Shown here one piece after another: positions 2,558 to 27,191 of a DNA stretch of 36,895 bases; position 1 is the first letter of the stretch, and each line of letters starts with the position of its first letter. Origin of the DNA: Spirogloea muscicola (taxonomy: Eukaryota; Streptophyta; Zygnematophyceae; Spirogloeales; Spirogloeaceae). The stretch is taken from positions 322,385-359,279 of the forward strand of contig WELB01000091.1 of the NCBI GenBank assembly GCA_009602725.1. Reading direction: 5' to 3'. The notes beneath the pieces are model-generated. The model was not told the origin of the DNA. It saw only the letters and a list, made by a program, of their open reading frames with translations, and searched no databases. A program made the position numbers and the translations under genes.

Positions 2558-2801
2558 TCACCGGCGGAGGCGGGCCACCTCGGCGTCGTTGGGTTTGAAG
2601 CCCATGAGGCGGCCGGCGGAGGCCTGGTACGCCAGCATGAAGCCGCCGATGGCCCCCAGCGTGGCCGCCGCGTACATGGACGGGCCCCGCACGTTGCTGC
2701 TGGCGCCTGTGCTCTTTGGTGGTTGGAGAGGTCACATTGCCCGGCGGAAACGCTGCGTTAGCGGCGGCGGCAACGCGGCGGCGGCAGTGAAGGAAGCGGT
2801 A

Positions 2802-2832
<31 letters not shown>

Positions 2833-2990: not shown

Positions 2991-3125
2991 GGCCGCCGCC
3001 GCCGCCGCCGCCGCGGGAGCCGCCGCGAGAGCCGCCGCGAGAAGCGGGGGACTGTTGCAGCGGCGGCCGCTTCCTGCGGCGGCTCTCGCGGCGGCTGCGG
3101 CGGCGGCGGCGGCGGCAGCGGCACG
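2991..3125 (-). repeat. GCC/GGC trinucleotide-rich leader of the complex I gene
   Basis: Imperfect GCC/GGC repeats run upstream of the minus-strand ATG at 2990 and also fill much of the intron (about 2790-2840). They create long spurious alanine- and arginine-rich reading frames on both strands. They most likely form part of the 5' untranslated region. Confidence 0.55.
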
Positions 3126-3159
3126 ACGAGGCAGCCCGTGTCGAGGAATGCCTTTTCCT

Positions 3160-3225
3160 TTGATCTTTGTCCATTCTTTTTGGGCTGGCTTTTCGCAGCC
3201 CTTGCCCCCATTGGGAGTGCCACTT
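3160..3225 (+). repeat. Dispersed repeat, Q module copy
   Basis: It contains a TTTGTCCATTCTTTTTGGG core followed by CTGGCTTTTCGCAGCCC. The same pattern recurs near 6110, 14525 and 14930 and in reverse near 6240, 21710 and 26475. The core GGCTG...CAGCC can pair with itself. Confidence 0.6.
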
Positions 3226-3359
3226 CTCCTCGACGTTGTTCTCATTGACGCTTTCCAACCAGAGGCACCCACACCGACTGTTGGGTTCAGGTTGTGTGTG
3301 TGTTTGGGCGACACATCATGCGGAGAGGAAGAAAGAGAGGCACTAATATGACCACCCCC

Positions 3360-3426
3360 GGGGCGACCACTTCTTCCCGTGCGCCGTGGACATACACGGC
3401 GGCTACGGAACGAAGTGGTCTTCCCC
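3360..3426. repeat. Long imperfect inverted repeat (hairpin)
   Basis: GGGG (3360-3363) faces CCCC (3423-3426). GACCACTTC (3365-3373) is the exact reverse complement of GAAGTGGTC (3412-3420). TTCC (3374-3377) faces GGAA (3407-3410), and CGCCGTG (3382-3388) faces CACGGCG (3395-3401). Together they can form a stem of about 24 pairs with internal loops and a small terminal loop. It directly precedes the R module of the dispersed repeat at about 3425. Confidence 0.6.
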
Positions 3427-3606
3427 TCGTTAGCTTGTCAGATTTGTTTGTGCTCACCCGTGGGTACTAATGTCATCTTAGGTACCTTAGATTAGGTCTC
3501 CGTATTATGTAGCATTGTTTAGTCTGCACTCGACTCTGCCTGAACAATGTATTGGCTTGAATTGGCCTCCCTTTCAATTCATGCGCCCCGCGCGCCTTCT
3601 CTCTCC
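3425..3606 (+). repeat. Dispersed repeat, near-full copy (R then P modules)
   Basis: The R module (3428-3480) contains GTGCTCACCCGTGGGTACTA. The P module (3541-3606) contains CAATGTATTGGCTTG, then TTGGCCTCCCTTTCA, then CATGCGCCCCGCGCGCC. The same order and spacing recur, reverse-complemented, at 26090-26262 and 4060-4255. No coding capacity is visible. Confidence 0.75.
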
Positions 3607-3607
3607 A

Positions 3608-5884
3608 TCGCCTGGCACTGCATGTTGATGTGCATGTGATCACTCGGGGATATTAGTGTCCCCCCTAGCCAGCTCATTACCTAGTTAACAGGACATTTGT
3701 AAGGCTAGGATTTGCCTCCCTTTCAATTTCATGCGCACCGCGCGCCTTCTCTCTTCCACTAGCGGGCGATGGCTGTGACTGGCCAGCCGAGAAAAGGAAA
3801 GAATGCAAGTGGCTTTTAGTTAAAGGCAATGGATATGAGAAGAAAGCTCTATCAGAGGAGAGTGAGGGCTGTGAAAGCCAGCCCCATAAGAAAGCGCTGT
3901 CTCTTCATAAAAAAGCTCTTCCATAAGGTCTGAGGACAGGGACAATCTTGCCACTTCCCACCTCACTGGCACGCCCCGCGCAGCCGCGCAAGGATGTGCC
4001 TCTATCCAAAGAAAACAAATAGCGCCTCCAAAGTAAGGCTGTGGCTGTGAGAGGCCAGTCAAGAAGAGAGAAGGTGCGCGGTGCGCATGACATGAAAGGG
4101 TGGACGCTGCAAGCCAATACATTGTTCAGGCAAAAGCAGTGCAAGAAGTGAGGCTACATGACATGAAGCCCTATGCTAAGGTGGCTAAGGAAACAGTGTG
4201 ACTTTAGTACCCACAGGTCGAGCACATGCAATTTCGACAGGCTAAGTTGGGGAGCTGGAGCGCGCCGCCACGGAAGGCAGAAGAAGCAGCTCTCTTAAAA
4301 GGGGGGCGAGGTCTGTCAAATGCCAGCTCAGAAGGAATGGAACAAGGTCCGAAAGAATTTTCGTGTATTTGAAACAAACGAAGGCCAAATGGCCAAGTAC
4401 AAAGGCAAGCACATCTAAGAAAGGGCCGGGAGGGGCTGAGGGCTGCAAAGGGCCAGCCTGTTATAAGTATAACAAAGTCCAAAGAGACGGAAGCAGATAG
4501 CACGCAGGAAAAAGAGGGATCACCAAGGGTTGCCGCTCAGTTACACCTACTTTGCAGCTGCTAGCCGGCAATACTAGCAGCCGGAAACACCAGCAGTCGT
4601 AGCCGCCGCCGCCTGAGGACGCCATGCAATTCAAGCTCCTAGATTCTGAAGGACAGACATTTCCACGAAGGAGGCGATACTGCGATAGGCCAGCCGGGAA
4701 ACGAAGAGAAGGACCATGACATGGAGCCCTCCACGATCCTGTTTGTGGTGTCCGTGCAGTAAGAGCTAGCTGAGCCCTTCAGTTTGTCTGTTTGTTGGTG
4801 GCCACATATTAGAAGTTGTTCAAGGAAAGAAAGAAAAGTGGCCGTAGCAGCTTATTGTGCATAGAGCTGATCAGGTCGCTCGGGCGCACATGACATTCCC
4901 TATCAGTGCATACTTGCAGCTCTCAGCTGAAGAATTACAAGCATCTTCAAGTGCCCTCCAAACCAGCAGAGGAACATGAAGCAATGACAATTTGGAATAC
5001 TCTATGTAGAATTGTACCTAGCGATGGCAAAATCCAATAGGGCTGTTCATATGTGCATCCTTGACGGGTCTTGATATTCTGCAGCTATGCTGATCTAATT
5101 TGACATATCTGACTAGGCATGCATGGAGCTAAGGTTCTAGTTGTCAAGCTTTCAAACAAGCTCGTAGAATCCATCCAACTATGATGTACGATGTGCAAGT
5201 ATGCATGCGAGCTTGTAAGATCCATCCAAGTAACATGACCTAGAACCAAACTTCTACCACTTCACTTGCTATATCTGATCCTCTGTGGTCGGTGCATGTG
5301 TGGGTACTGCTACCTGATGTAGGCGGCAGCGATGATGGATCCACATGGGCACATTAGAATTGTGTGTACTATCGAGTTTAACATCACCAATGATATTCAA
5401 TGCAACAAGGATAATCAAGGATTGGAAGTAAAGTAAAGTCCATCATGGAGCTGTCATGTGACTGCTTCCTCGTGTCCTGCTTCCTCCGAATGTGATTCTG
5501 AAAAGAGGAGCCATCAGGCTTGCGCACTTGTGGATTGGGCAGTACCTCTTTGTGCCCTTTCAGACCTTTTTCATTCCCATTGGGCTGGCCTCTCACATGA
5601 TCGCCTAAGTTGAAGAAGCAAGAGGGCTTTTCCTCTTGTAGCCGGCCGTGGAGCACCTTCAGCCTGCTATTTGTCCGAGCTCTCGTATATCCTTCCCTAA
5701 GATTGCCGCTGTAATGTCGTGTGGGCCGTTCACTAAGCCGTTGGCTCCAGTGAGGGAAAATAAGCAAGGCCGTCGGGCTTCCATGCAGCTCCAGAGCCCA
5801 GAGCCACAAAGCGTGGTTGGGGGCCTTCTTGGGGCATCGCTTTGTCTAAAGCTACATCCTTTGCTCTAGCTTTGCCTGGAAAGT
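3608..5884. repeat. Repeat-rich intergenic block: P, Q and R module copies, no gene seen
   Basis: A P+Q copy lies at about 3708-3795 (TTTGCCTCCCTTTCAATTTC, then GGCTGTGACTGGCCAGCC). A reversed Q-P-R copy lies at about 4030-4255. Q fragments are at about 3865-3885, 4325-4350, 4435-4475, 4685-4720 and 5545-5597. At about 5156-5177 and 5209-5231 there is an imperfect direct repeat ending GATCCATCCAA or GAATCCATCCAA. No open frame here has coding character or a recognisable family. Confidence 0.55.
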
Positions 5885-6275
5885 GTTTGGCTTGATCTGG
5901 CCGCCCTCGCATTGCATGCGCACCGCGCGCCTGCTTCACAATACCATCGGCAGCCCCGCTCTGGAGACTGCGAAGTTCGGCATTTGGGCACGGCTAGTCT
6001 TGTGTCTAGCTGTGTAATTTTATTTCTCGGCTAGAGTCTTCGAGCTCATAATCTTGAGGGCTGGCATTCTCTTCTACTTTCACGGCTGGCCCCTTCGAAC
6101 CTTGTCAATTATTTTTTGGGCTGGCTTTTCACAGCCTTTTCTTCGCTTTCACAGACCTTGTTCATTTCATCGGGCTGGCCTCTCACGGTCACGGCATTAC
6201 ATTGAAAGCACAAGCGCGGCCAGAGTGACTGGTGGCTGGGAAAGGCCAGCCCAAAGGAATGGACAAGGTCTTGTC
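5885..6275. repeat. P module copy and inverted pair of Q modules
   Basis: A P copy (5885-5938) has CATTGCATGCGCACCGCGCG. Three or more Q copies follow at about 6083-6275. Those at 6154-6192 and 6225-6270 face each other: the left reads GACCTTGTTCATT then GGGCTGGCCTCTCAC, and the right is its approximate reverse complement ending GGAATGGACAAGGTC. They could fold into a stem of about 40 bases. Confidence 0.6.
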
Positions 6276-7193
6276 GTGCGATATCCCGTCGGTGGCTCAT
6301 TGGTGTCGGTGTTGACAAGGACGCGGAGGTGGCTGCTCACGTGGATATTCGAGGGTGAGTAATTTCTCAATTTGGTGTGAAGGTGGGTCGCGAGCGCGGC
6401 ATCTCCAACCCGCTTCGGTCAGAATCAGAAAAGATACGTTTCGATCTGGTCGGCGTCGGAGCATCATCCGGATCCCGGCGCCAGTGCCTCGCCATCAACG
6501 GTGCTTAGGCTTCCTCGCCGCCATGGTCAATCAGTGCCTCGGCGTGCAGCGCATTGCCCTCTTGCCACCTTCGCCACACAAAGCCCTGCTGATTTATCTA
6601 AGCCAAGAAAGCTCACGAAAGCACGTCGAAGGTGTGATATGCCTCGATAAGCCGTGAGGGACCAGTAGGGCAGTGGTAGGGTAATGGTAGGTAGTGGTAG
6701 AAGCGAGTCTCAGGCCTTGAGGCTGGGGAACCCAAATGGGCCAAATGGCCCACCCCAACAAAACAATGTCATTCTTTATTTGACCAGGCATAAAGGGTGT
6801 GGAGGGCCGGGGGCCGAGCAACTCGCTCGGCCTAGTCTCTTCCTTTTGGCTGCTGCCAACCTTTGCCGCCGCCGCTGCCGCTGCCGCCGCCGCTGCTGCT
6901 GCCACTGCACAGTAAGCGTAGCGCGCGCGCCCAGGGCCACGCCACGAAGGCGTGGGCACAGGCAAAAAGCACAGACCTGCAAAGAGCCTCACCCGACGAG
7001 CCCCGCATCCGGTCGCAAAAGACCGAGCGTGCACTTGGTAAGCCGTGCGAATCATCCCCAAGTCCAAGCCTAACCTTGGACCATCAGAGAGCCTCGCCGA
7101 ACACGCGCGAGCGACTTTCATCGTGCTCCATTGCATCTACTGCATTGTGAGCTTGTTTCTCCGGCATCTTGTCATTGTTACTCGAAGTTTCCA
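6276..7193. other. Intergenic, no gene seen
   Basis: Short overlapping frames occur on both strands, without splice-consistent continuation or a recognisable motif. A GCC/GCT-rich patch at about 6866-6910 produces alanine- or arginine-rich frames. Nothing here supports a gene call. Confidence 0.4.
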
Positions 7194-7333
7194 GTTACTG
7201 GGGCCACTCCCCTTGGTTCGAGTTCGCTGTTACTGGGGCCACTCCCCTTGGTTCGAGTTCGCTGTTACTGGGGCCACTCCCCTTGGTTCGAGTTCGCTGT
7301 TACTGGGGCAACTCCCCTTGGTTCGAGACACTG
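7194..7333. repeat. Tandem array, four copies of a 35-bp unit
   Basis: Copies start at 7194, 7229, 7264 and 7299. The first three are essentially identical. The fourth has one internal change (GGGGCAACTCCCC) and a diverged last few bases. Each unit carries GGGGCCACTCCCC, which can form a four-pair hairpin. As 35 is not a multiple of three, the array shifts frame with every copy, so it is unlikely to be coding. Confidence 0.9.
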
Positions 7334-7908
7334 TTACTTTTGAAACTCTCTCTGAGGGTACTTTTGGGCTCATTCTGGTTTCTTGTTCGTACGCTTTGCT
7401 TGTGACTTGTCCATTCGATCCCATTTTACTAGTAAATTGATCATTTCCATTCCAAGTTCTTAATTGCCAACCATGTCATCTGTTGGTTACTCCTATTCTG
7501 TTATTTTCTGTTGTGTTGTTTTCAATTGATATCCAAGTAGCTCCTAAATTCCTCGCGGACCTATTTCCACCTCAATTCATTGAGTGCCCACCACGCCAGA
7601 CTGATTTCTTGCCTGCTTCCGTACTAATCTGACTTCTCGACGCTTATCTGGCAATTGACGCCCTGTGGCACGACAGTCTGAAGGAAGCAAGCGCGGCCAG
7701 ATTGACTGGTGGCTGGGAGAGGAAGGAGCCGGACTGCGAAAAGAGCTGTTTCCTTGCTGAAGGTCAAGGGCTCAACAAACCAAACCGGCGATTGGCTTTG
7801 TTGAATGCTAGCTTGACGGCAGCTCGACGGCACTTCGGAAGAATCCAGGCAAGAGCGGGGGAGGGGCGTAGGGGGTACGTACATCTCCTGGCTGCCCGCC
7901 GCTGCGAG
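7334..7908. other. Intergenic; Q-type repeat fragment at about 7688-7725
   Basis: The fragment AAGCGCGGCCAGATTGACTG followed by GTGGCTGGGAGAGG closely matches 6211-6246. Otherwise this stretch is T-rich and shows no gene. Confidence 0.45.
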
Positions 7909-8050
7909 CCACGTGTCTAGCCGAATCTGCCACGTCAACGTGGGGCCCGGCTGCAGGACACGCGTCGCCCAATCTACATGCAAGGCTGGCGCGTGCTGCC
8001 ACGTGGCGGCAATGGCCGCGCCCTTCGCTGCGAGGGCACCACGTGGCGCC
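7909..8050 (+). promoter_or_regulatory. Cluster of ACGT-core / G-box (ABRE-like) sites
   Basis: Within about 140 bases are CCACGTGTC (7909-7917), the inverted pair CCACGTCAACGTGG (7930-7943), the palindrome GCCACGTGGC (7998-8007) and CACCACGTGGCGCC (8037-8050). In plants, CACGTG and ACGTGKC cores are bZIP (ABF/ABI5-type) binding sites in ABA- and dehydration-responsive promoters. They lie about 260-400 bases upstream of the ATG of a dehydrin-like gene. Confidence 0.7.
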
Positions 8051-8067
8051 ACGGCACTTGGCAGCAG

Positions 8068-8197
8068 GTGCCTGGCTTCCCCCCCCTCCTCCCCCTCCCT
8101 CCCCGGTGGTCGCCCGTAGGTGATTCCAGCCCCTCGCTTTTCGGCCTCCCTCCCTCCTCCCCCCCCCTCTTCCCCCACTTCCCCAGCCGATATAGTC
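8068..8197 (+). promoter_or_regulatory. C/T-rich core promoter with possible TATA element
   Basis: Dense C/T tracts at about 8070-8100 and 8145-8180 precede CCGATATAGTC, a possible TATA element at about 8189-8195. The ATG is about 115 bases further on, behind a CCGCCG-rich leader. The TATA call is tentative. Confidence 0.4.
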
Positions 8198-8309
8198 TAC
8201 CTCGGCAGCTCCCCATTACTTACTTCCATCTTCCTCACGTCTCCACTCATCAATCTTAGCTTCCTTACCCTCCGCCGCCGCCGCCGTCGCAGCCGCCGTC
8301 GCCGCCACC

Positions 8310-9265
8310 ATGACGCTCGGCGATAAGCTCCACCAGATGGAGGACAAGGTCATGGGCATGATCCACAAGAAGAAGGCGAACGACGGCACCGACGGCACTG
8401 GCGCCGGCACTGCCAGCACTGGCAACACCTCCAGCGACATGTACAACAGTGCGTTCAGCCGCCGTTGCCGCCCTTGTAGTCTGCGGCTGTCGCTGCTGCA
8501 GCTGCTGCTGATGCATATATGAGAGTATTGTCTATGGTGAAAGATAAGACCTGCATGTAACAGGAACTAAGCCGGATTGCAAAATTGAGAATGGTCAGTC
8601 TAGTTCAGCTTAGCTCAGCTCAGTTGAATCAGCTGAATTATACTGAGCTGCGTGTTGACTACAATTGAGCTAAGCTAAGCTAAGCTGAGCTGAACTACCA
8701 TTGTCAATTATGCAGTCCAGCTCTGCTTGTTGGAAGGCCTCTTTGAGGTTCTTCTGCTGCAGCAGTCATTGTTGTGGACCTTGCATCAACAGATTGTCCT
8801 CTGAGAGAACAATGCGATGTTTGTTAAGCTTCTTGAGATGCATAATGTGCAGGTGGCACTGGCACCGGTACCGGCATGGGCACCGGCACTGGATACAGCG
8901 CCGGTGGCACCGGCATGGGCTCTGACTCCACCGGCATGGGCACTGGCATGGGCACTGGCATGGGCACCGGCACTGGCATGGGCAGTGACTACAGCACCGG
9001 CACCGGCACCGGCATGGGCACCGACACCGGTCCCGGCATGGGCACTGACTACAGCAGCACAACTGGCACTGGCATGGGCACTGGCATGGGATCCGACCCC
9101 AACTCTGGGACCGGCATGGGTCAGGGCATGGGCACTGGCTATGACTCTGGTGTCATGGGTGCCCAGACTGGTATGGGTGGCGGCCAGGGCAACATGGGTG
9201 TCGGTGGGTACCAATCTGGAGCCAACACTGGCGCGTTCAACAACAACAACACCAACACCTACTGA
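8310..9265 (+). CDS. Dehydrin/LEA-like Gly-Thr-Met repeat protein, two exons
   Basis: Exon 1 is 8310-8448 and exon 2 is 8853-9265, joined in phase 1 across a GT-AG intron, giving a 183-residue protein. The ATG has a strong context (GCCGCCACCATGA). Residues 1-25 form a basic amphipathic stretch (DKLHQMEDKVMGMIHKKK) that loosely resembles a dehydrin K-segment (EKKGIMDKIKEKLPG). The rest is low complexity: many copies of GTGMG or GTGTG, with D, S and Y interspersed (GSDYSTG, GTDYSS), then a tail of GGYQSGANTG, asparagines and TNTY. No transmembrane segment or signal peptide is visible. The composition suggests a disordered, hydrophilic stress protein, and glycine/threonine-rich phi-segments are known in some dehydrins. 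The upstream ABRE-like cluster fits desiccation or ABA induction. The function is inferred; there is no clear Y- or S-segment, so a generic glycine-rich protein is the alternative. Confidence 0.75.
8601..8697. repeat. Inverted-repeat element inside the dehydrin-like gene intron
   Basis: The left end begins TAGTTCAGCTTAGCTCAGCT and the right end finishes GCTAAGCTGAGCTGAACTA. The ends are near-perfect inverted repeats built from AGCT-containing steps. The size (about 97 bp) and structure fit a tiny MITE-like insertion or an intronic hairpin. Confidence 0.6.
8886..9185 (+). repeat. Coding minisatellite (GGCATGGGCACTGGC-type units)
   Basis: Exon 2 of the dehydrin-like gene consists largely of 6-bp-phased variants of GGC ACT/ACC GGC ATG GGC. 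The repeat keeps frame, so copy number can vary without disrupting the protein. Confidence 0.8.
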
Positions 9266-10922
9266 AATGTACACTGCCATTAGCTTCGCTCGTAGGGGTC
9301 AGCTCGCTGTATTCAATTCTGAAACATACTTTTGACTTCGTTGATGCAAATGTAACATTCTTTGTAGATTCCTGTCTCTTTGCAACCTCACCAAGTGGCA
9401 TGCTGGAGGCCAAAGTCTCTCTTGCCTGACATTGAAAAATGCTCTCAAATTCTCAAATGCCTCTTTAGTTGAAAAGCCTCGTCAAAATCTTAAAGTGAGT
9501 GGCTTTGTATGTTACAACTCTTCTTACACACTCGCATTTATGTCACTGTAACGACTGCCGGGGAGTTACTGGGGGAGTTACCTTCTAAAACTTACCTCAG
9601 AGTGATAAATTACTGCTTAGTTGTGGCTTTTAAGAATGCAACAATGATTTAAGTCAAATGTGCAAGCTATTTGATTGAAATGCGCAAACTGACAGAGATA
9701 GTAATATTGAAAATTTGAATGCTACGAATCTATGAGTTTGACAAATCCGAACGCCATGACAAATTTGCAATGATGTTGCCATCAACATTAGAGATAACGG
9801 CCGAGTTACGCTTGGACGGATAGACACAATCTAGCCTCGAGTTGGCCTCGACTCTCAGGCTTTAACCTCGGGGACATTGACACGTATCCCTCGGCCTAGT
9901 TCGTGTCTACATTGTAATCGGCCCTTAAGGTACTTGAACAGACCTCATTATCGCAAATTTTAAATCTCTGAATGCTTTTCACACCAACGCCCTTAGCGAT
10001 TAGAAAGAAAGCTCGCACACTGTCACTGGAGGGAAGTAAGAGAAGCTAACTCACATATCATTTCGCAATTTCTCAACTTTTGTGACAGCTACTTTAAACG
10101 TATGCCTGGTCTTCACTTGCCTGGTCAAAAGTCGTTTTGCAACTACATCTACAGTTGCGAACGTTTCCGGTCCTCTTCTTACTTCAGCTTAAATCTCCAT
10201 CCTGCGAATAAACTTCTGCAGGCCTTTACAAAGAATATTGGACTGGCTGCTTACTCTTGTCCACATCCACTATCCTCGCGTTTTTACCACTAATCTCTCA
10301 TGTCTCATACCTGTTGCTCACATCATCTGCTGCTTCTCGCAGATCATTTGCTCTGCTTGACAGACATTGAACACATTCTTCTGATACTGGTAGATATTTT
10401 CATTGATAGGTACGTGACCAATGGAAAACCTAGTGTAGTTGCGTGTGAATGGTGACATGTGTGTTTGGACTGCGTTCTCAACTTACTGTTAGCATTCTTC
10501 GTCATGGAGTACCCAACTTGTGCACAGGAGTGACGATGTGTCTGATATACAGCCCACTTGCAATCTGAATGTTTCTCTACAAAGAATTGTAAGACAAATG
10601 AAGCTTTGAGTTGAAGGGCAATTTACAGTACCAAGGCAAGCTTTGGCACGAGAAATTACTGCGGCATCCATTGGACAATTAAGCCTACCCTAAACAAGAC
10701 GGGAGTGTGGTTGAACTACAATTGACCTACACTTCGCATGCAGTGTGCTCAGTGGCAGCATACAAGTGATGCTGATGCAAGTGCATGAGGCCGAATTGTT
10801 CACCACATCAAAGGGCACCAATGCATCTACAAAACCAGGCTCTTTGCCTAGCAAAATGAGATTGGGTCGCATGCAATCTGCTTTTCCTGCTTCAGCACCC
10901 GCACTCCCGCTCCCATCTACTA
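9266..10922. other. AT-richer convergent intergenic region, no gene seen
   Basis: This stretch separates the dehydrin-like gene from the convergent methyltransferase gene. It has short frames only, with no recognisable motifs or clear repeat copies. Both 3' untranslated regions should lie at its edges. Confidence 0.5.
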
Positions 10923-13251
10923 TCAGTCCACCCGAGCGGGCTTCTCGATGACACAGTTGAGGTAAACATGTGGCCCAGGGCGCTCGCCCTCATCGGGCTT
11001 GGGTGTGAGATTCCAGTAGAGGCGGCGGTACTGCAAGAGCTCCAGGATGGTGATATAGAGCGGCATCTCAGGCTCGGGCGTGTAGAACATCTCGAACCAC
11101 ATGATGCCGCCGGGCCGTAGCACGCGGTCCCACTCGAAGACCAGCTCCTCAAAGTCGGGCAGCGTCAGGTACTTGATGCTGCATGCGTGCAAGATACAGA
11201 AAGGGTGAGTGCCCAACAGACACGGATGCAGAATGGCGAAGAGGGCGGAAGAGCTGGAAAGATGAGCCAAGGAGGTGAGGTAAGGGAAGAGGGGTACTGG
11301 CATAGTCAACATGTATAGCTGCCATTGCAAGTAGCTACATGTATACATATGCACACATACATCTACGTGTGTATATATGGATGAAGAGCTATATATATGT
11401 ACTTGCATACGAATATGTGTATCTATACACACATATGTATGTGCATGTACGCATATGATCTTAGAGGAGTCCCAAATGTAGCAGAGAAGGAAGAGGGTAG
11501 AGAGGGAGGGGGTTGGGGGGGAGGGTTGGACCGAGAACCCAGATGCCAATGCAGCGATTACCATAGCTGTTCATGCAACGCACTGTGCTGCAGAGTCGCT
11601 GGCCGCCACAGTATGAGCACTTAGAGAGTAAGTGTGCACCTGTTAACGCTGTGAATGACGTCAAGGGTGTTGTCGAAGAAGGGCAGGCGGGCCTTGTGTG
11701 GGACGTGCAGCGGAATAAGCCCCCTGCGCGCAATCGTCTCCATGTACGGCAGGCCCTGGTAGCGCCCATACACGGTTTCGATGTTCATCGCCGTCGTCAT
11801 GATCGTGACGTTGTACGATGCCATGCGCGCCGCGAACGAGCCTGTGCCGCCGCCGGCGTCCAGTCCGATCCTCAGCGTCCCATTCTTCAATGCAATGACG
11901 TCCGCCATCTTGGGTGCCCCGCGGTAGTTCGACCGCCAGCGGCTCGACTCCAGGCTGCGCAGTCCCAGCACCCCAGTGTGTCAAGTGCAAGGCCTAGGTG
12001 GGCAGGCTACAACTTGGTGACAAGCAAGGCTGCCGCTCGGCGACATGACGATTTGCCACCTGTGAGCTGCCTCTAATGTGCAGTTGCCGACCTGAGGTTG
12101 AAGCAGTTGCGGCAGTCGCCGGCGTCGCGCGTGTTGAGGCAGCCGAAGGTCTTGCAGTAGTGCAAGTCCCAGCGGATGGCGCCGTCGCCGAGGGTGCTCT
12201 GGTCCCACAGCGAGCGCGGGAATGGCACCGGCTCCACGATCCGGCGCGGCGTCGCGGCCAGGCACCGCCGCTTGGGCAGCGCGAAGCAATTCTGCGCAGC
12301 ATAGAGGAGGAGGCCTTTGGGCTTCTGAGCGGGCTGCATATGTGGTGGGCTTCAGCTGAATTTGCTGGAGCTGGCAGCTGGGGGACTGAAAGTGGGGAGA
12401 GGTGAGTGAGGAAGAGCAAGGGAGGAGAGCAGATAAGTGCTAGTCATGGTGAATAAGCATGACGTGGTACACATATATACACAACTTGTGTATGTGTAAC
12501 ATTTACAAGGCAGAATATTAGGTGGGGTGAGGATGTAGATGGAAGAAACGAGCGAGGCGAGCGAAAGGGGCGAGAAAGGGATAGACAGAGGTACATAGAC
12601 GGGACTGATAGAGGACAAGGTGGGAGGCCTGCAAGCACCACTGTGTACCTTGACAAAGATGAGGTCCTGCACGAAGAACCAATCGTCGGGGCAGGGCGCG
12701 CGTGCCGTGTAGTTCAGGTAGCGCACCATGTCTGCGGCGCTCGCCTCGCACTTGCAGGCCTGGCCGGTCGCTGGCCCCACTGCGGCCACGAGCTGCTGCT
12801 TGCCGCACTCCTCCACCGCCCGTTTGGCTACGTCCATGGCTTTTGCGCTGAGGACGCGGTCTTCGGCCGTGCCGGCACCGGCGCCCACTTCGGCGGCGGC
12901 TCGCTCAAGGTCAGCATTCTTGGCGCGCAGGCCGGCCACCTCGGCTCGCAGCGCCGCGAGCTCCAGCGCCAGGTCCCCGCCCTCCAGCGCGCCGCCGTCG
13001 GACCTGCCGCCGGCGCCACCTTCCGGAAGCTGCTGACCCCGGCAGGCGGCGAGGGCAGCGCGCTCCTCCCGCAGCTGCGTCGCGCACTGGGTGGCCTCCT
13101 GCCATGGCTCCGCCGCCAGCACGTGCATCGCCTCCACCGCCTGCGCCGTCTCGAGCTGGGCATATTCCATCCGGTGCTGGCTGTCAGTCGCAATCCCCTC
13201 TGGCGCCGTCGTATCCTTCTTGCTTATGAGAGGAGGAAATCTGTCTCCTTG
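10923..13251 (-). CDS. SAM-dependent methyltransferase, plant At1g29790-like, N-terminus unresolved
   Basis: Minus-strand exons are 13251(or 13170)-12649, 12291-12092, 11954-11640 and 11178-10923. Junctions are in phases 0, 2 and 2, all GT-AG. The C-terminal catalytic part carries SAM motif I, GLDAGGGTGSFAARM, then a post-motif acidic strand (TTAMNIETVYG) and a late motif RVLRPGGIMWFE. The preceding region has YTARAPCPDDW and a cysteine-rich patch (PKRRCLA, YCKTFGCLNTR, CRNCFNL), as in the plant family of probable methyltransferases around At1g29790. The N-terminal exon encodes a helical, probably coiled-coil region (ALEGGDLALELAALRAEVAG). Relatives often start with a membrane anchor; none is seen here. 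The frame stays open upstream of ATG 13170 to an acceptor at 13252, so an earlier exon probably exists. Substrate unknown. The gene is convergent with the dehydrin-like gene. Confidence 0.78.
11330..11460. repeat. TA/TG/CA-rich low-complexity tract in methyltransferase intron
   Basis: Alternating purine-pyrimidine stretches (GTATACATATGCACACATAC and similar) fill part of intron 11639-11179. They are self-complementary and prone to cruciform or slippage. Confidence 0.6.
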
Positions 13252-13314
13252 CTAAAGTCGAGGACAGGAGAGGAGGGAGACGACAAGGGAGGGAAGGGGG
13301 GTGCAACACAGAGA

Positions 13315-13318
<4 letters not shown>

Positions 13319-13377
<59 letters not shown>

Positions 13378-13378
13378 N
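13319..13378. repeat. (GA)n microsatellite ending at an ambiguous base
   Basis: About 29 uninterrupted GA units are followed by N at 13378. On the minus strand this is a (CT)n run about 65 bases upstream of the probable acceptor at 13252 of the methyltransferase exon. The N suggests the repeat length is not resolved in the assembly. Confidence 0.9.
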
Positions 13379-13510
13379 TAAGAGTTCATTCTGACCAATT
13401 TACAGCCATGGCCCCTCCACTGGAAAGAGTCCCCTACTCTCCACGTACAACTGACACTGTTCTTTCTCAAGCTGGGATTCCGGATGGCTTCGCTGATGCC
13501 CGCGGATCAC

Positions 13511-13683
13511 ACCACGTCAGCATCAGTCCACGTCTTTGATCCACGTGGCGACCAGCCGGAGGGCCCTCCGGATGAGGACGGGGGGAGAGAAGCCAATCTC
13601 AGCCTGCCACGCCGCCGGGCTCTGCCACGTGGCGAGCACTCGGCGCGCATGCTGGGAGGGCCCCGCCCCGTCCGCCACGTGGC
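13511..13683. promoter_or_regulatory. Second cluster of ACGT-core / G-box sites
   Basis: Sites include ACCACGTCAG (13511-13520), TCCACGTC (13527-13534), CCACGTGGC (13541-13549), GCCACGTGGC (13624-13633) and GCCACGTGGC (13674-13683). A C-rich tract follows at about 13684-13730 and a GCC-repeat leader at about 13770-13815. This layout copies the promoter of the dehydrin-like gene. It could serve a plus-strand gene starting at 13821 or the minus-strand methyltransferase. Confidence 0.6.
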
Positions 13684-13783
13684 CACCCTCCCTCCCCCCC
13701 TCCCAAGCCCCCCCACCTCCCCTCTAACGCCACATGTTTAGCTCCTGATTTGCCGCTACACACACCCGCCTTCACCGCCGCCT

Positions 13784-13814
<31 letters not shown>

Positions 13815-13820
13815 AGCCGG

Positions 13821-13876
13821 ATGGCGCTGGCCGAGGCGGGGGGGGCGGGAGTGGCGGAGCTGGGCCAGCCCCCCCG
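13821..13876 (+). CDS. Possible first exon of an unidentified gene downstream of the G-box block
   Basis: The ATG at 13821 follows a GCC-rich leader and opens a short frame, MALAEAGGAGVAELGQPP, that ends at a possible GTGACC donor. I found no convincing next exon, and a dispersed-repeat copy begins about 155 bases later (14032). It may be a genuine first exon, a relic truncated by repeat insertion, or chance. The support is the promoter-like context only. Confidence 0.2.
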
Positions 13877-14031
13877 GTGACCAACACTCACCCACTCCTG
13901 GCGGGGGGGGTGCTCCAGGAGTCCCCAGCAGCGACAGGGAGATCCCGGCTAACGCCACCCTGCTACCCACCCGTGCGCGTCCGCATCTCTGTTCCTGGAG
14001 CCTGCAGGGTGCCCGCCCCTGCTCCGGATGA

Positions 14032-14105
14032 GCGGAAACTCGCATGAAATGGAATGGAGGCCAATCCAAGCTCCAATACATTGTTCGGGCGCGCGAAAGG
14101 CGCAT
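14032..14105 (-). repeat. Dispersed repeat, P module copy (reversed)
   Basis: It contains CATGAAATGGAATGGAGGCC and CAATACATTGTTCGGGC, the reverse complement of the P module at 3541-3606, with a rearranged CG-rich end. Confidence 0.6.
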
Positions 14106-16627
14106 GATCTACTGGAAGATGGAATGTTGGCCTCCCTCAATGACAAGGGAGCCGGACCGGGCAATCCGGACACTGCGCGTCTTGCAAGCTGGTGCAAGAA
14201 GTCCAGCCTACCAAGCCCCATCAGGGCACTTTTACTTCCTCGCCTTTGGTGGCGCCGACAATGACGTGCCCTGCCTTCAAGGGCGAGAAAAGTGGAGTGC
14301 ATGGGTGGGATGCGGCTCAGTCTCGTTCCAGCGCTCCCTGGCTCACGCAGTCCACTTGCGAGCAGGCCGCGGTATGGCTGCTGCTTCTGGGTCTAGGCGG
14401 GGTGCCTCTTTCCAGCTGCGAGTTACTCTGACTTGCTGCTGCTCACTCGTGGTTACAGAGCTTCCATCTGCGGTGGTCTTGTGTCTAGCTGTGTGGTTTT
14501 AGGCGCCTTCCGGCTCGTTGCACCTTGTCCATTCTTTTTGGGCTGGCCTTTCCCAGCCCCTACGTTCTATGGGAGGGCACTTCCTTTCTGATGCGTCTGT
14601 GGTGATCACATCCCCAATGTTGCCGGCCCCTTGGCCACGCGTGACAGCCAACAGGTCGACCCGCTTGTGGGGGGCCGTCTGCCCTTATCTATATGGGTAT
14701 CACTGATCGTTTACCACTGCCATCATGGCGTCCGGCGGTAAATTGCCAAACATCGCATCTTGGAGGAGGTCAAGAGCTGCCGGTCCTCGCCCCTGTTAGA
14801 AGGGCTGCTCACAATTTCACAGCTCTCGCCCCGTTTGAAGCCTGTTCTGTGGGCTGGCTTTCACAGCCATCAAACAAGCTGCTTCAACTCTTTACGTGTG
14901 ACCCTTGTGAGTTCTTTGGACCTTGTTCATTGAGGGTTATTTGGCTGGCCTTTTACGACCATCGGCCCCTTTTGAGGAGCTGCTTCTCTTTGATAGCCTC
15001 CATCTAAACCTTCAACACGAAATTCATAAATGTCCCCAGTGAGAAGCAACAAGTATTCATCGGCCCTCCCCCAATGCATCAGAATGATAGAAAGTATATT
15101 AAATTTTCCATATCCTTGAAGGCCTAAGCCTTGAGTACCAAAGAAGTGAAGATCTTCATACCTGCAATCGTTTCAACGATGTCGAGTTGCAACTAGTGCG
15201 CAAAGTTTTGAGGAACGGCTTGCATGTTGCATATTCTCAATGCATGACCCACGACCCAGCTTTGCTGGTCAATATTGCACGCTTCCTGGGTCTCTCTCTA
15301 GCAGTGGCAGAAGCTGCCTGGCTTGCAAATGTGCACCCCCATAGGCCGCCAGTTGGAGCACTGATGCACAACCTACCTTGTGAAAGGTAGGTTGCAGTAT
15401 GATGCTCGCATTGCTTCACTGGGCATCTCACCTGATCAGTGCTCGAATCTCTGGCTGAACACTTGCTGGCGCGAGCTGCAATAACCTTTTTCTGAAAAAA
15501 TGGGAAGTGACGTAAGAGGCATTGATGTTTCCTATCAACATTGTCTAGCAGTACTTATGTCCACGCATCAAAGTGGTCACTACACCTGCTTGTCCATGGC
15601 AGTAGAAACAAAGCTTAAGCAGAAGTGGCATGCAGACACATAGTCACCGCTTGTCCGGGCCTCCACTTACATACTTGGCAAGCTCTTGCACATGGTTTGC
15701 TGAATCATAACATCGGCCTTCACGTTTGACCAACGAGATGGTTGGAATGTATATATTGTGCTACTCGAGGACGAATGCACGAGCAAGCAGTCTGTGCTCA
15801 CTTCATCTATTTGCATGCAGCCTAGATCATGCAGCCTAGCCTAACCTTACTGTCGACCAACAATTTCACTCTTGCTGTGACGTCCAACAGTGAAACTTCT
15901 TTTACTCCAAGAGCCGTGCAAGCTTTCAAGCTTTGCAGCCTCCAACAGCAAAGTGAGGGTCGCAAGACTCCTCAGGCACAGCTCGGACCTCGTCGGCCAA
16001 GTGGCCGCAGCCTATGTCCCTAAGCTTCTGCACCAACAGCCTTGCCATGCTTTGCCATGGCACCTCCTTGCAACCTGCTGCGCATGCGCAGCAGAATCAA
16101 CTAAAGTCTAGTGGTAACCAGAGCGCGCCGCCGCTGGGCCCCTTGCTGACCAACTCGAGCTGGTGCATGGCGAGCGAGCTCCAAGGCAAGACTTAAGCGC
16201 TCACCACGCCGCCGGCGCCATCGCCGCTCCATGAGGGGCGCCGACGGCGAGCAACACCTTGCCGCGCGACGCCTGCTGCTGCACCGCAAGGCCGTCAGTG
16301 GGACTTTGCAGCTCCGCCCGGTACGCCCGCCCCAAATGGCGACTTGTCTAGATGGGCTCTGCTCTACAGCCGCCACTGCCATCACAAGCCTAGCGAGTCG
16401 GCCGCCAGTCGCCGAGCTGGGCTTCAGCTGCCAACAGTGCAGCCTGCGCTAGTACTTGGGCTCTCCAGCTTATGGACGGGCGCGAAAGAGGATCCAGACG
16501 TTGGTAAGGACAGGGGTAAGGACTTGATGTACAAATCAGAATCTGGAGCTTGGAGAATGTACGATGACCTGAGCCACAGCGACAGGGAAAAGCTCATGCT
16601 TCGTTGACACCCCCGCCGGTTGTCCAG
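14106..16627. other. Intergenic region with Q copies; upstream exon(s) of WDR13-like gene may hide here
   Basis: Q modules lie at about 14515-14566 (CACCTTGTCCATTCTTTTTG, then GGGCTGGCC) and 14845-14965. The phrase GTCTTGTGTCTAGCTGTGTG at about 14474-14493 also occurs near 5997. A GC-rich, exon-like island at 16122-16323 ends at a possible GTACGC donor and could be an upstream exon of the WDR13-like gene. Another candidate is 16445-16505, with a GTAAGG donor. I could not connect them in frame with confidence. Confidence 0.4.
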
Positions 16628-20640
<4,013 letters not shown>

Positions 20641-21509
20641 TGAGATGAAAATTTTGCAACTCAATGGGCAGAGGACTTTGGGAGGCTCCCTGTGCATACG
20701 GCCGTATCAACGTGGCTGTGAGTGACGCTCCTTGGTACAACTTCAGTTGCTTATGCTACTCTCCATCTTCTTGTCATGGTCTCTTAGCAAAGCTTACCAT
20801 GCAACGAGCCCGTGCAATGGCTAGCCAACCTTACACAAGATGCTGATGCAAGAAAGGCAGCTGGTGGGCTTTGCGCAGCGAGAGAGAATCGAGAGGGAAG
20901 CAGCAGAAGCCTTATGTATCCGAGAGTATCGAGAGGGGTGCACTCGCCCACCCTGCTGGCCACCTTGGCCAAGCCTGTCAAAACCCCACAGGTCCAGGGC
21001 AGGCAGCGGCCGCTCGGGGGCCAGGCACTGTAGGACAAACAAGACCTTGACTGACACACGCGCTTCATCTATAACTCCTTGGACCTTAATTTTTTTTTTT
21101 AATCATTTCTTTTATACTTGGTTATGGTTTGGACAGCCATTGCCCCCTTTGCGTGTGCTTCCTCTCTACGTCCTCGACAAGCACAGGTAAGTCATCCGGG
21201 GGGTTTGGTTGGGGGGGAAACAGATCAAGGGGTGAGGCTGGGGAATGGCACGGGAAGGTGCGGCGACTGCTGGTTGGGGGGAGGGGGCAGTGTGACAGAC
21301 TTGTCATACTTGACCCAACAGCCCAACCTCGCTCAGCAACTCGAGAACTTACGGGCTTGTCTCGACGACATTTCTAGTGCCATGCCTGGAGCCTGCAACT
21401 GCTGGCAAATCAAGTGAGAGCTGCAGTCTGTGACGAGCAACCAATGCTGGCGGGACGCTGGGGGAGTGTGAAACAAGACGGCTAAAAGTGTGGCGCCCCG
21501 GATCAGTCT
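20641..21509. other. Intergenic region with one coding-like island
   Basis: The island at about 20800-21030 is open in two plus-strand frames (one has QLVGFAQRERIEREAAEALC, the other NLTQDADARKAAGG) and could be an exon of an unplaced gene, but neither frame has a recognisable family or clean flanking exons. A T-run lies at about 21090-21101. Nothing else is supported. Confidence 0.35.
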
Positions 21510-21780
21510 ACCAGATTTTGTATGTGCTCACTTGTGGGTACTAGAATCCCCCTTTCAATTGTAATCGTCGTCACTGTTACCTTAGCCCCTTCAAGACCGT
21601 CTTTGTTCTTCTCACGATGACATTACTGATTTGATTTGGCCTCCCTTTCATTCTCTTTGTTTCCTTTCCAGTGGCAGATAGACTCTTCCAGTAGATGAGC
21701 GATGGCTGTGATGGGCCAGCCCAGCGGAAAGAATGAATTTCGATTCATGCGCACCGCGCGCCTTCTCTTTGGCCGTTCCT
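21510..21780 (+). repeat. Dispersed repeat copy (R and P) interrupted by a Q-containing segment
   Basis: R is at about 21515-21545 (GTGCTCACTTGTGGGTACTA). The left half of P is at 21630-21650 (GATTTGGCCTCCCTTTCATT) and the right half at about 21740-21772 (TTCATGCGCACCGCGCGCC). Between the halves is about 90 bases containing GGCTGTGATGGGCCAGCCC and GGAAAGAATGAA. In the other copies the two halves are contiguous, so this looks like a Q element inserted into P. Confidence 0.6.
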
Positions 21781-21825
21781 GTGGGGAGAGCAAAGACGGT
21801 GGGCCTGGTGTGAACGCAACACTGC

Positions 21826-21953
21826 CACGTCAGGAAATGCTGGACAGTGTGAACGCCCGGCAGCCCGTCGCACGTTTCGGGCGCGGTGGGCGACGTCGCC
21901 TGGCGACCCTTCCCGCCCAAACGGCCAGCCTCAGGGCGCCAAGGACACGTGGC
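21826..21953 (+). promoter_or_regulatory. ABRE-like ACGT sites upstream of the GRAS gene
   Basis: Sites are CCACGTCAG (21825-21833), a GACGTC palindrome near 21892 and GACACGTGGC (21944-21953), the last a canonical ABRE/G-box. They lie about 340-470 bases before the most upstream candidate ATG (22294). Confidence 0.5.
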
Positions 21954-22256
21954 GCTTCACCACCTACTCAATCGTGGCCAGCTGGCGCCGATCGGCGCCG
22001 TACACGCGGCACCGCCGCCTGTCTGCCAGCTGGCAGCCTGCCAGTGAGGCGGCGCCGACGGTCCGGAGTGGCGGTGGGTTTGTCCGCTAGCGGGGGGGAC
22101 ACTGCTGAACCGTCAGATTTAGCTAGCGGGGCGCGGGGCGCCGGTGGAAAAGGTAACTTGTCTCTCGACATCTTCCGGGTAGTCACGAGGCGGGGGGCTC
22201 ATAGGGCTACCAGCCGCGGCTAACCGCCCTAGGCGCCTCCACAGCCCGTCGACGAG

Positions 22257-22293
<37 letters not shown>

Positions 22294-22294
<1 letters not shown>

Positions 22295-22337
22295 TGGCCA
22301 TGCTGGATAATGGGCGCCTGCGTGGCGGCGCCAATGG

Positions 22338-22368
<31 letters not shown>

Positions 22369-24940
22369 GGCGTGNNNNNNNNNNNNNNNNNNNNNNNNNN
22401 NNNNNNNNNNNNNNNNNNNNNNNNNNNNNNNNNNNNNNNNNNNNNNNNNNNNNNNNNNNNNNNNNNNNNNNNNNNNNNNNNNNNNNNNNNNNNNNNNNNN
22501 NNNNNNNNNNNNNNNNNNNNNNNNNNNNNNNNNNNNNNNNNNNNNNNNNNNNNNNNNNNNNNNNNNNNNNNNNNNNNNNNNNNNNNNNNNNNNNNNNNNN
22601 NNNNNNNNNNNNNNNNNNNNNNNNNNNNNNNNNNNNNNNNNNNNNNNNNNNNNNNNNNNNNNNNNNNNNNNNNNNNNNNNNNNNNNNNNNNNNNNNNNNN
22701 NNNNNNNNNNNNNNNNNNNNNNNNNNNNNNNNNNNNNNNNNNNNNNNNNNNNNNNNNNNNNNNNNNNNNNNNNNNNNNNNNNNNNNNNNNNNNNNNNNNN
22801 NNNNNNNNNNNNNNNNNNNNNNNNNNNNNNNNNNNNNNNNNNNNNNNNNNNNNNNNNNNNNNNNNNNNNNNNNNNNNNNNNNNNNNNNNNNNNNNNNNNN
22901 NNNNNNNNNNNNNNNNNNNNNNNNNNNNNNNNNNNNNNNNNNNNNNNNNNNNNNNNNNNNNNNNNNNNNNNNNNNNNNNNNNNNNNNNNNNNNNNNNNNN
23001 NNNNNNNNNNNNNNNNNNNNNNNNNNNNNNNNNNNNNNNNNNNNNNNNNNNNNNNNNNNNNNNNNNNNNNNNNNNNNNNNNNNNNNNNNNNNNNCCGACC
23101 GGCAGCCAGGCCACGGCCGCCGCCGAGGCCGCCGGCGCGACCGCCCGGCGCGGCCGCGGCCTGCAGCTGCGCAGCCAGCTTGTGGCCTTCGCCGAGGCGA
23201 TCGCGACCGATGATTGGCAGCGCGCCAAGTTCCTGCTCAGCCTCCTCAAGCGCGAGGCGCAGCCCAGCGGCGACGCCTCGCAGCGCACCGCCTACCTCTT
23301 CGTCGAGGCGCTCAAGGAGCGCATCGGCTTTGGCGAGGGCTCGGCGCTCATCGCCGGCGGCAGCCGCCCAAGGCCGCCGCCCAAGGAGCTCGGCGCCGCC
23401 ATCGGCGCCGTCTGCGACGCGCTGCCGTTCGTGCGCTTCGCCCACATGTCCGCCGGCGTGGCCATGCTGGATGCGTTGCGCTCCGACTGTCGCGTGCACA
23501 TCCTCGACCTCTCGTCTTGGCAGGTAGGTCGCAAGCACCCGCCTCGTGTCTTGGCCAGGATCTCAGACTCTTCAAATACTGTAACAGTCAAGTACTGTAA
23601 CAGTGTACCTATGAGATTGTGTCGAAAGTGACCGACCCTACTTGGGTGACCTGCGCAGGGCGGGCAATGGGAGTCGGTGATCCGCGCGTTTGCAGCGAGG
23701 CCGCAGGGCCCGCCGCGGCTGCGCATCACGGTGCTGCCATGCAGTCCCGACGCCAACTTCAACAAGCCGCCCCGCATGGCGTACGAGGAGATGCAGCGCC
23801 AGCTGTCGCTGCTCGCCGCCTCGCTGGCAGTGCCGTTCGAGTACCGCATCCTCGGCGGCGCGCTCGAGGACCTGCGTCCCGAGACGCTGGCGCTCGAGCC
23901 CGGCGAGGCGCTGGCTGTCAACGCCGTCATCCGCCTGCACACGGTGCCGGATGAGAAAGTGCTGCACTCGAACCCGCGTGCCAAGGTCCTACGATTGCTG
24001 CGGTCCCTCAACCCCGCCATCTTGGTCGTGGTGGAGAAGCACAGCAATGGCAGCAGCCCATTCTTCCTCCAGCGCTTCCAGCAGGTCACACCACTAGCTC
24101 TACATGCACCTGTGAGCTTGTGACTAGCATTCATAGGTGACGATGTTGCAATCATGACATTGGAAGCTGTTGTGAAGCTGACCGCTCTAGCACGTGTATT
24201 CTGGTCATTTGCACTCCAATTCTAAATCAATGTCTGCGCTGAAGCTTGGCAAGTTGGCCCCACATGGCTGCAACTCTCACCAACACTGGGCCGCCCACGC
24301 ACTTGTGTCCTGCAGTCCCTTGACGCCATGCAGGTAGTCATGGCGGCAGTCGACTCATTCTTGCCGCGCACGAGCAAGGACCGGTACGTTTTTGAGAAGC
24401 ATGCGCTGGGCGCGGAGATCATGAACCTGGTGGCGTATGAGGGCCTCCAACGCACGCGGCGGACCGAGTATCTGCCCAAGTGGCAGTGTTGCCTGCGTGA
24501 GAGCGGCTTCTGCAGCAGGTAGAATCTTCAATCTCGTGCTCCTGGCATATAATATGTCACTGTCTAAACAGCAGTAGCCCCTTACTATCCCCTTCAATAA
24601 GCCTGTCAATGAAGCATTGTTACAATGGATCTACTTTGAGAGCAGGCACTATGCATTTGCATGCAACTTTCATTACTATCAATAGAAATAGAGCTGGTGA
24701 ATGGCTGCTTGTGAATATCGTAGCAAGGGTCCAGCAGTCTGTTGTGTAGAATCGAGGATGCTGATCATCTGCAATCGCACGGCGTGGAACAGGCCATACT
24801 CACCGGCGGCACTGAGGGAGGTGAAAGCATTGGTGGAGCAGTTCACGGGCACAGAAGTGAAGGACCAGGGCGGCGCGCTCATGCTGTCCTACAAGGACTT
24901 CCCCATCATGCACGCCACTGCGTGGCAGCCCGCATTCTGA
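22294..24940 (+). CDS. GRAS-domain transcription regulator, N-terminus lost in assembly gap
   Basis: Certain coding exons are 23095-23523, 23659-24084, 24316-24518 and 24793-24940, about 401 residues with junctions in phases 0, 0 and 2, all GT-AG. The GRAS domain is essentially complete: a leucine-rich region LRSQLVAFAEAIATDDW; the VHIID motif as VHILDLSSWQ-GGQW, with the intron exactly between Q and G; a GEALAVNAVIRLH segment; NPAILVVVEKHSNGSSPFF; EIMNLVAYEG; and a C-terminal SAW motif ending MHATAWQPAF. GRAS proteins are nuclear regulators of development and hormone signalling (SCR, SHR, DELLA and SCL groups). I cannot place this one in a subgroup, although the GEAL-VN and PFF blocks recall SCL/LISCL types. 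The start is uncertain: ATG 22294 lies before 720 Ns in a GGC-rich tract, and an intron could hide in the gap. It is tail-to-tail with MSH6. Confidence 0.88.
22375..23094. other. Assembly gap, 720 N
   Basis: An uninterrupted run of N sits inside the presumed first exon of the GRAS gene, directly after a (GGC)n tract at about 22258-22374. It is likely a scaffolding gap caused by GC-rich low-complexity sequence. Any frame spanning it is an artefact until filled. Confidence 0.98.
23566..23612. repeat. Tandem duplication in the first GRAS intron
   Basis: AAATACTGTAACAGTC is followed directly by AAGTACTGTAACAGTG within the 135-base intron 23524-23658. It is probably neutral slippage. Confidence 0.65.
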
Positions 24941-27191
24941 TTCACCCCTTGCTCAGACACTATCCTTCTCTTATGCAATGGGGCAATGCAGCTCCCCAGC
25001 GAATGCTGGCTTTCAGCTTGTGTCTATATGTCAAGGTATTAGACTCCTCATGTCTGCTCCATGCACTTACTGCTGGACTGAACATGGCTCGGGCATGTGT
25101 TTGGCCGGCTGCCGTACTCTTCGGTCTTGCCTCACGTGCTTTGGCCCTCACTGAGCAGAGTACTCGCATCTGGTTGCTATATCCGCAGCCTTGGAGAAGA
25201 CTGGGGAAAGGTTTGACAGCAGTTGAGACAAAGAGGCGTCAGCTGTAGCAAGGCTGCCAGGGACGCCGCCCATAGAGTGATAGAGGCCCAGTTTTTGCCA
25301 AGCACAAGATAAGCACATCAAGAATGTAGGCTGCCTGCTGAAAACCCGAGCTACTCAGCAGCCGCTGGTCAACCTGTAGGATTTGTATATCTGATTCTTG
25401 AGTATATGATGGCAATACCAAAGCCCCTGATACCCTGCCGGAAGGAAGTGGAATATGCTGGGTGGGGGTGGAAATCACGGTGGGGGACTGAAGCTGGAGA
25501 CTACATACTTCCATTTCGCACAACTGAGGCATGGAGAACTTCTGAATGCCTCTACTATTTGATGCTATCCAAAGGAAACGAAAGCACACCTGGTCAAGCG
25601 CCAGAGGTCTGAAATAACTTGAATGTCCTCTATGATGCTAATGTGCACTCTAATGTGCGCCCCATCATGCAGGTGCAAGGTAGTGGCGGCTTACATTTGC
25701 TGGCAGAGAGGCCACCACCGAAAGCCTTGCATGGCCTTCAAAGCAGAGACCAGATAGCCTGCGCTCCTGTGTCTGAGAATAGGCAGCAGCTGGAGCGTGC
25801 GACGCCCGCGTTTAGTGGGTCTGACGCGGATATATCAGCTTGCAGCCCTATGCTCTATGCTCCGTCAAGTTGATCAAAAGGAAGAACTTCCTTAGTACAC
25901 CTAGCAGTGCAGTAGATGGACTTTACGCGAGTTTAAGCTATTTGGCGGGCCCAGCAACACCACTCTTTTCTTCCTAAGCAAACTTCACTTCCTCAACACC
26001 ACAACTGCATCACATCTTCCACGCACCAACGGCCAGGTCATTGTGCTGCATATTGCCGCCTGAACTGCTACTACTGACCTGTTGCAAGGAGAGAAGGCGC
26101 GCGGGGCGCATGAAATGAATGGGAGGCCAATGCAAGCCAAAACATTGTGCAGGCAAAGTCTAGTGCAAACTAAACAAGGCTACATAATACCTAAAGTTAG
26201 GTGCCTAGGGTGACATCAGTACCCACGGGTGAGCACAAACAAATTTGACAAGCTAACTTGGGGAGCTGGAGCGCCAATATGCAAATTGCAATATGTCCAG
26301 TCTTTACTACTACACTATGCTGAGGCGGTCGAGGTTTTCCAGAAACGACACAGATTTCAAAGGCACACCATTGACGCCACTTGCCTTTCATTCTCGTCAT
26401 TCTGCCATTCTCTTGAATTGAGAAGGCGGCGACAAGGGGGTGGACAAGAGAAACAGCTCTTCGAATGCAAGGCAATGGCTGTGAGAGGCCAGCCCAAAGT
26501 AATGAATCAGGTCTGAAAGGGCCATGTTTGTCCGTGCCTCATGCAAGTGGAGTCTCAATAAGCTCTAGTCGGCAAGTGCAGATCCGAATAACTAGAGGGC
26601 GGAGAAGCGTCGCCCTGTTTGTTGGAATCTAAAAGCAGCAGCCAAGGCGCGGAGGAGAAGTACATTCTCAAGGAGGGCGTGCGGTGCGCATGCATCGGAA
26701 GATAGGCCCGAGCCGAGCCAACACAAGCAAAGGGTATAAAGGGAGTGGAAGCAATGGGGCTCCACAAAGCGAAGCTCTGGTCTAGGAGGGGCTACCGAAG
26801 AATCAAAAGCATGGCTGGAAGGGGGCTTAGGGCAACAGTGGCTGTTATTGCTAACGGAATGATGCCCCACCAACTGCATTGCTGATGGACCATGCCCCTG
26901 TAGCACCTGCTGTCTGGCAGGTGTGCAACTGAACATAATTCCAGCTTCAAAGCTCATTGGCTTTGCATAGATGCCAAGTGGCCTAGCGCATTCCCAGCGA
27001 CCGGTCTTTGCGCTTGCCTTTACAGCCTGTCTACCTTGTGGGGCCCAGTTATGTACTGCATGATGAGATAACACTTGACTGACCAATCTGTCGAGTTGCA
27101 TCAATTGCAGGAGCATTAACTTTGGGCTTGAGCTTGGCGAACAAGTATAGTGGATGAGACCCTAACCTGATTCACCTGACGTGCTGATAAT
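24941..27191. repeat. Convergent intergenic region with three dispersed-repeat copies, no gene seen
   Basis: A reversed P-R copy lies at 26090-26262 (GGAGAGAAGGCGCGCGGGGC ... GTACCCACGGGTGAGCAC). It is the best reverse-complement match to 3425-3606. A Q copy lies at about 26470-26520 (GGCTGTGAGAGGCCAGCCCA, then GAATCAGGTCTGAAAG). A degenerate P end lies at about 26672-26700 (GGGCGTGCGGTGCGCATGCA). The rest has no supported gene. Confidence 0.6.

Follow-up and report, generated by a model that had tools for sequence, protein, structure and literature searches.

The window, that is, the whole stretch of DNA that was analysed (36,895 bases, G+C 55.6%, 721 N), contains two real families of repeats, here called RP and Q. 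With a probability of roughly 0.55 these are old, decayed and as yet unclassified non-autonomous transposable elements, or the ends of larger ones, that were inserted into streptophyte-like nuclear spacers. The preliminary description of this DNA had listed three modules, R, P and Q. The repeats it described are real, but R and P are the two ends of one repeat of ~185 bp (RP), and Q is a second, separate family with a length of ~50 bp, or up to ~76 bp where copies are better preserved.

The setting looks eukaryotic and streptophyte in appearance. Pfam identified a GRAS domain split across two plus-strand frames (23650–24120 and 24226–24519; E 3e-36 and 8e-11), the complex I 21-kDa subunit (frame 2541–3437, minus strand; E 5e-10) and, on the minus strand, MutS domain V (29327–29815; E 2e-8) and domain III (31674–31898; E 5e-12). 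We take a GRAS protein in an intron-bearing genome to point to streptophytes, and the genome is called streptophyte-like for this reason. A Tudor-like match (35985–36578, E 0.006) and WD40-type matches (17910–18227, best E 3e-4) fell below their cut-offs. The open frame 8846–9262 is rich in GMGTGTG-type repeats, has no Pfam match at E 0.1 and looks like it encodes a low-complexity protein. No transposon protein domain was found in the 20 open frames of the window scanned with Pfam. The earlier claim that all repeat copies are intergenic fits the genes recognised with Pfam; the gene models behind it are rough and come from the 20 frames scanned.

At E ≤ 1e-3 the window contains 36 self-pairs vs. 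2 in total across 20 block-wise dinucleotide shuffles, and the repeats are therefore no chance effect. By our count, 10 of these 36 pairs are palindromes or tandem arrays outside RP and Q. Models were built from the window's own copies (three for RP, six for P and seven for Q), and the best score in 20 shuffles set the limits at 5.0 bits for RP, 11.4 bits for P and 12.3 bits for Q. Above these limits the RP model gave nine matches at eight loci and the P model eight loci; a marginal RP-model match at 1388–1417 (5.7 bits) was left out of the RP count. Both self-BLAST and profile matches are above the shuffles, in agreement with the dispersed, apparently non-coding repeat family first proposed.

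RP extends from about GGCGCTCCAG to CTTCTCTC, and its eight loci comprise three near-complete copies, one shortened, one split and three that are mainly P. The near-complete copies A (3422–3606, plus strand, 224.5 bits), C (4051–4278, minus strand, 213.4 bits) and G (26075–26290, minus strand, 229.9 bits) went into the RP model and score by construction; the other five were outside it and are independent. Identity among A, C and G is 73–86%. The best pair is A and G (3422–3603 on the plus strand against 26264–26089 on the minus strand; 182 columns, 86%, E 4e-57). Copy C aligns with A over 192 columns (4253–4065, minus strand, against 3422–3604; 73%, E 1.5e-24) and with G over 201 columns (4066–4263 against 26089–26274; 75%, E 6e-30). 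The length of RP agrees well with the ~180 bp that had been said to fit a non-autonomous element.

Among the independent copies, the shortened copy B (3627–3759, plus strand, 43.4 bits) had been taken for a single P at 3710, but the RP-model match at 3627–3756 (43 bits) also takes in a worn R. Copy D (5860–5943, plus strand, 40.3 bits) consists of the P part only. Copy E (14029–14092, minus strand, 29.4 bits at 14041–14090) has the inner P without the 3′ core; the P reported at 14046 stops at CATGCG and is without most of the core ascribed to it. The split copy F (21492–21769, plus strand) scores 21.6 bits at 21492–21552 and 19.1 bits at 21738–21769. Copy H (26673–26784, minus strand) is weak and mainly P, with 14.4 bits from the RP model and 17.2 bits from the P model (26673–26725). 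R and P had been described as keeping the same spacing in four places. Three of these have core starts 130, 136 and 124 bp apart, but at 21.5 kb a Q-bearing stretch intervenes and the distance is 222 bp.

The P end of RP is constant and the R end is variable. At seven of the eight loci the match reaches RP-model position 204 or beyond (copy E is the exception), and R is recognisable at five (A, B, C, F, and G). This pattern is one reason for reading RP as a mobile element. The aligned copies A, B, C and G differ by 0.14–0.37 substitutions per site, as would copies that arose at different times; this is another reason, and the little sign of a functional RNA (see below) is a third. In copy F, P is split in two by the Q-bearing stretch. 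With the P model its first half (21627–21652) reaches 9.0 bits, less than the 11.4 bits of the best shuffle, though it aligns with copy A at 19 of 20 bases. The Q-bearing stretch itself is similar to the sequence after P in copy B (80% over 56 columns), which suggests that the order of the modules has changed at least once. The left boundary of copy A falls within an imperfect palindrome (3360–3425), which may have removed the R end of that copy.

Q had been counted ten or more times in both orientations, and with the first Q model we likewise found 13 loci (six plus, seven minus) above the best of 20 shuffles. Seven of these went into the model and score by construction, namely 3157–3206 (minus strand, 36.8 bits), 5554–5599 (minus, 41.6 bits), 6089–6139 (minus, 41.0 bits), 6148–6195 (minus, 41.6 bits), 6230–6278 (plus, 45.6 bits), 14517–14563 (minus, 43.3 bits) and 26471–26522 (plus, 48.2 bits). 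The last contains the exact 19-bp core given in the preliminary description (26477–26495), which occurs only once; the other Q copies have diverged from it. Outside the model set are copies at 4306–4355 (plus, 20.6 bits), 14914–14964 (minus, 19.0 bits) and, within RP copy F, 21699–21737 (plus, 15.4 bits), together with partial copies at 3862–3892 (plus, 15.3 bits), 4038–4060 (plus, 14.6 bits) and 14847–14871 (minus, 13.2 bits). An extended Q model from 11 copies, scored without a shuffle control, adds 21098–21167, itself among the 11, and gives 15.4 bits at 3751–3800.

A coding role for Q seems unlikely, as on our reading the internal spacer differs in length by at least one base between copies, which would shift the frame. 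A common origin of P and Q was not established either: over the two orientations tried, the alignment of the consensus sequences was matched by 712 of 2000 shuffles with reverse Q and by 30 of 2000 with forward Q. Four of 11 reverse Q ends share CTTCTCT, which has a background frequency of 2.9% per 20 bp; this was not counted because the Q ends are related to each other. A 26-bp stretch is shared between 5997–6022 and 14476–14501 (92%, E 1e-4), each time shortly before a minus-strand Q, and is perhaps one more module.

RP and Q together cover 2,171 of the 15,886 bp of spacer DNA (13.7%), with the spacers delimited roughly from the recognised genes. The repeats are thus a minority of the gene-free sequence and not much of it, as had been suggested. 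By spacer the coverage is 23% (3010–8190), 12%, 19% and 9%, with none in two further spacers, for a set of 17 Q places, four of which were below the shuffle maximum or not matched by the first Q model. Each of the eight RP loci has a Q at a distance of no more than 423 bp, which was equalled in 4.5% of 20,000 random placements; this is a weak sign that RP clusters with Q, with the same four Q places included. We also considered Q pairs of similar length around RP (3157–3800 and 21098–21740) as the ends of a larger element. This was rejected, as the inner sequence is not collinear, and the alignment score of the 21-kb pair (18) is below the 95% point of the control (22). As terminal repeats, three candidate Q pairs score 48, 35 and 18 (control 99% point 28, maximum 94), and opposite Q copies match by nature.

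The main rival explanation is local duplication, by which pieces of spacer would have been copied within the region through unequal exchange, replication slippage or repair and then decayed. All observed copies are from one 37-kb window, and the part from 3.0 to 8.2 kb holds four of the eight RP loci and eight of the 13 for Q. Tandem arrangements occur for RP (copies A and B) and for Q (6089–6195), and the absence of any transposon hallmark would also be as local duplication has it. Nevertheless, RP and Q copies occur in four separate spacers, up to 23 kb apart and in both orientations, and the closest RP pair, A and G, is inverted and 22.5 kb apart, without longer similarity in the flanks. 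Local duplication as the source of both families seems unlikely to us, though it deserves to be taken seriously. The presence of copies in four spacers and both orientations, whose similarity ends at short boundaries, is a further reason for reading RP and Q as mobile elements.

The usual ends of MITEs and SINEs had not been recognised in the preliminary description, and our tests of target-site duplications and terminal inverted repeats (eight RP loci) and of the B box (six loci) were likewise negative. The best target-site duplications at the eight RP loci score 4–7, not above 300 random intervals (median 5, 90% point 7, maximum 15); old copies may have lost them. Terminal inverted repeats score 3–7 at the same loci, also not above the control of 300 random intervals (median 5, 90% point 6, maximum 9); copy E, with a score of 7, is over the 90% point and inside the control range. 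The A and B boxes are the consensus motifs of internal pol III promoters, and no B box was found at up to two mismatches in the six RP loci scanned. A-box-like matches at up to one mismatch occur three times on the plus and five times on the minus strand of these loci, at inconsistent places and counted without a control. A-rich or simple-repeat 3′ tails are absent; the RP copies share the CTTCTCTC end and then pass into unrelated flank. A tandem repeat of 35 bp at 7194–7338 (4.2 copies, 96% matches) contains GGTTCGAGTTC, which we take to resemble a pol III B box.

Searches of the whole window for known RNAs gave no Rfam family that reached its gathering score and no tRNA gene with ARAGORN. 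A relaxed Rfam search of 3100–6400 gave four sub-threshold matches, up to E 5, of which none was tRNA, 7SL or 5S. RP was rejected as a SINE, being without B box (six loci scanned), A-rich tail, target-site duplications above control or a tRNA, 7SL or 5S origin, and as a MITE, since its terminal inverted repeats are not above control. A conserved RNA is likewise not supported for RP: none of the 15 predicted pairs in the alignment of four copies shows a compensatory change, and on neither strand is the fold of copy A more stable than those of shuffles (z −1.2 with 27 of 200 as good, and +0.5 with 146 of 200). We counted against the reading of RP and Q as transposable elements that target-site duplications and terminal inverted repeats above control, an A-rich tail and a B box are all absent, and that copy E is without the 3′ core.

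Two of the Q copies form the arms of a hairpin at 6146–6280 (left arm 6148–6195, right arm 6230–6278; −66.6 kcal/mol, z −7.1, 0 of 200 shuffles as good). A G+C-corrected scan with 2,385 stretches, each 135 nt long, places it seventh for the plus strand (residual z −3.7) and about twenty-first for the minus strand (residual z −2.3), and it is thus strong, but not alone. The Rfam match to MIR4387 at this hairpin is sub-threshold (29.7 bits vs. a gathering score of 84, E 0.003). The group at 6089–6278 is the only one among the 13 Q loci with opposite-strand copies within 150 bp, and the hairpin therefore does not define the Q family. The best-folding place in the scan is a G+C-rich inverted repeat at 2992–3122 (arms of 56 nt, 91%), directly upstream of where the match to the complex I 21-kDa subunit lies. 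At 8570–8722 a strong foldback that has no relation to Q (arms of 33 nt, 79% complementary) is among the best-folding stretches on both strands, and an A+T-rich stretch at 11311–11475 (G+C about 0.34) also folds unusually well on both.

RP and Q might instead have a function, cis-regulatory or as RNA, for which they were retained next to genes; Q could for instance be a plant promoter element. Q contains AGCCCA, which we take to be the complement of a TGGGCT “site II” type motif, all copies are near genes, some ~1 kb or less upstream of a recognised gene, and the Q hairpin with its sub-threshold MIR4387 match would suit an RNA role. However, short spacers put any repeat near a gene, and the copies occur in both orientations and variable order, with large divergence and truncation. 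Together with the lack of compensatory changes in RP and the single close inverted pair among the Q loci, this makes such a role improbable.

Five pattern scans for the repeats had no match in a viral collection (viral_contigs), and the P pattern had none in a prokaryote collection of 257 billion bases (genome_contigs). The R pattern matched one locus of the latter, in a bacterial MAG, where about four would be expected by chance on a rough estimate; no P or Q lies beside it, the best P-model score being 3.2 bits, below the top of the shuffle range. As these collections are viral and prokaryote, absence from them is expected and says little. That no copy was seen outside the window, and no transposon protein in its 20 frames, was nevertheless counted against RP and Q being transposable elements. 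Among the open-licence papers listed, titles and abstract openings contained no report on these repeats, and three repeat strings did not occur in the open-licence literature. For comparison, PMC11096116 gives MITEs as 4.3% and 11.6% of two Zygnema genomes, and 33.2% of the Mesotaenium genome is affected by transposable elements, as cited in PMC10505561.

If RP and Q are indeed transposable elements, the preserved P end and variable R end of RP are the only hint of how it spread. RP would most likely have been copied through RNA by target-primed reverse transcription. The P end would then be its fixed 3′ end, 5′ truncation would be frequent and a partner element would have supplied the enzyme; we infer the movement of RP and Q, the RNA intermediate, the sense strand and the partner enzyme alike. 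A long shot would be that RP and Q represent lineage-specific 3′-anchored short retroelement families of streptophyte algae, without pol III boxes or A-rich tail and ending in the CTTCTCTC tract, with Q pairs that at times form hairpins feeding small RNAs. On present evidence RP and Q are ordinary in kind and change no idea of how such repeats work. Should many copies exist genome-wide, they would be useful entries when a repeat library is made for a lineage close to land plants, so that they are not annotated as genes or promoters.

Compared with known systems, RP resembles SINEs and the 5′-truncated ends of non-LTR retrotransposons in being short, dispersed, apparently non-coding and present in both orientations with one end kept. 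Unlike these it lacks a B box (six loci scanned), an A-rich or simple-repeat tail and target-site duplications above control. The repeats are in the size range of MITEs and one Q pair is a foldback, but terminal inverted repeats above control are absent from RP and only one close inverted pair occurs among the 13 Q loci. From the unclassified interspersed repeats reported by de novo repeat finders we found no difference: like RP and Q, these lack known ends or proteins, and are repeated and diverged.
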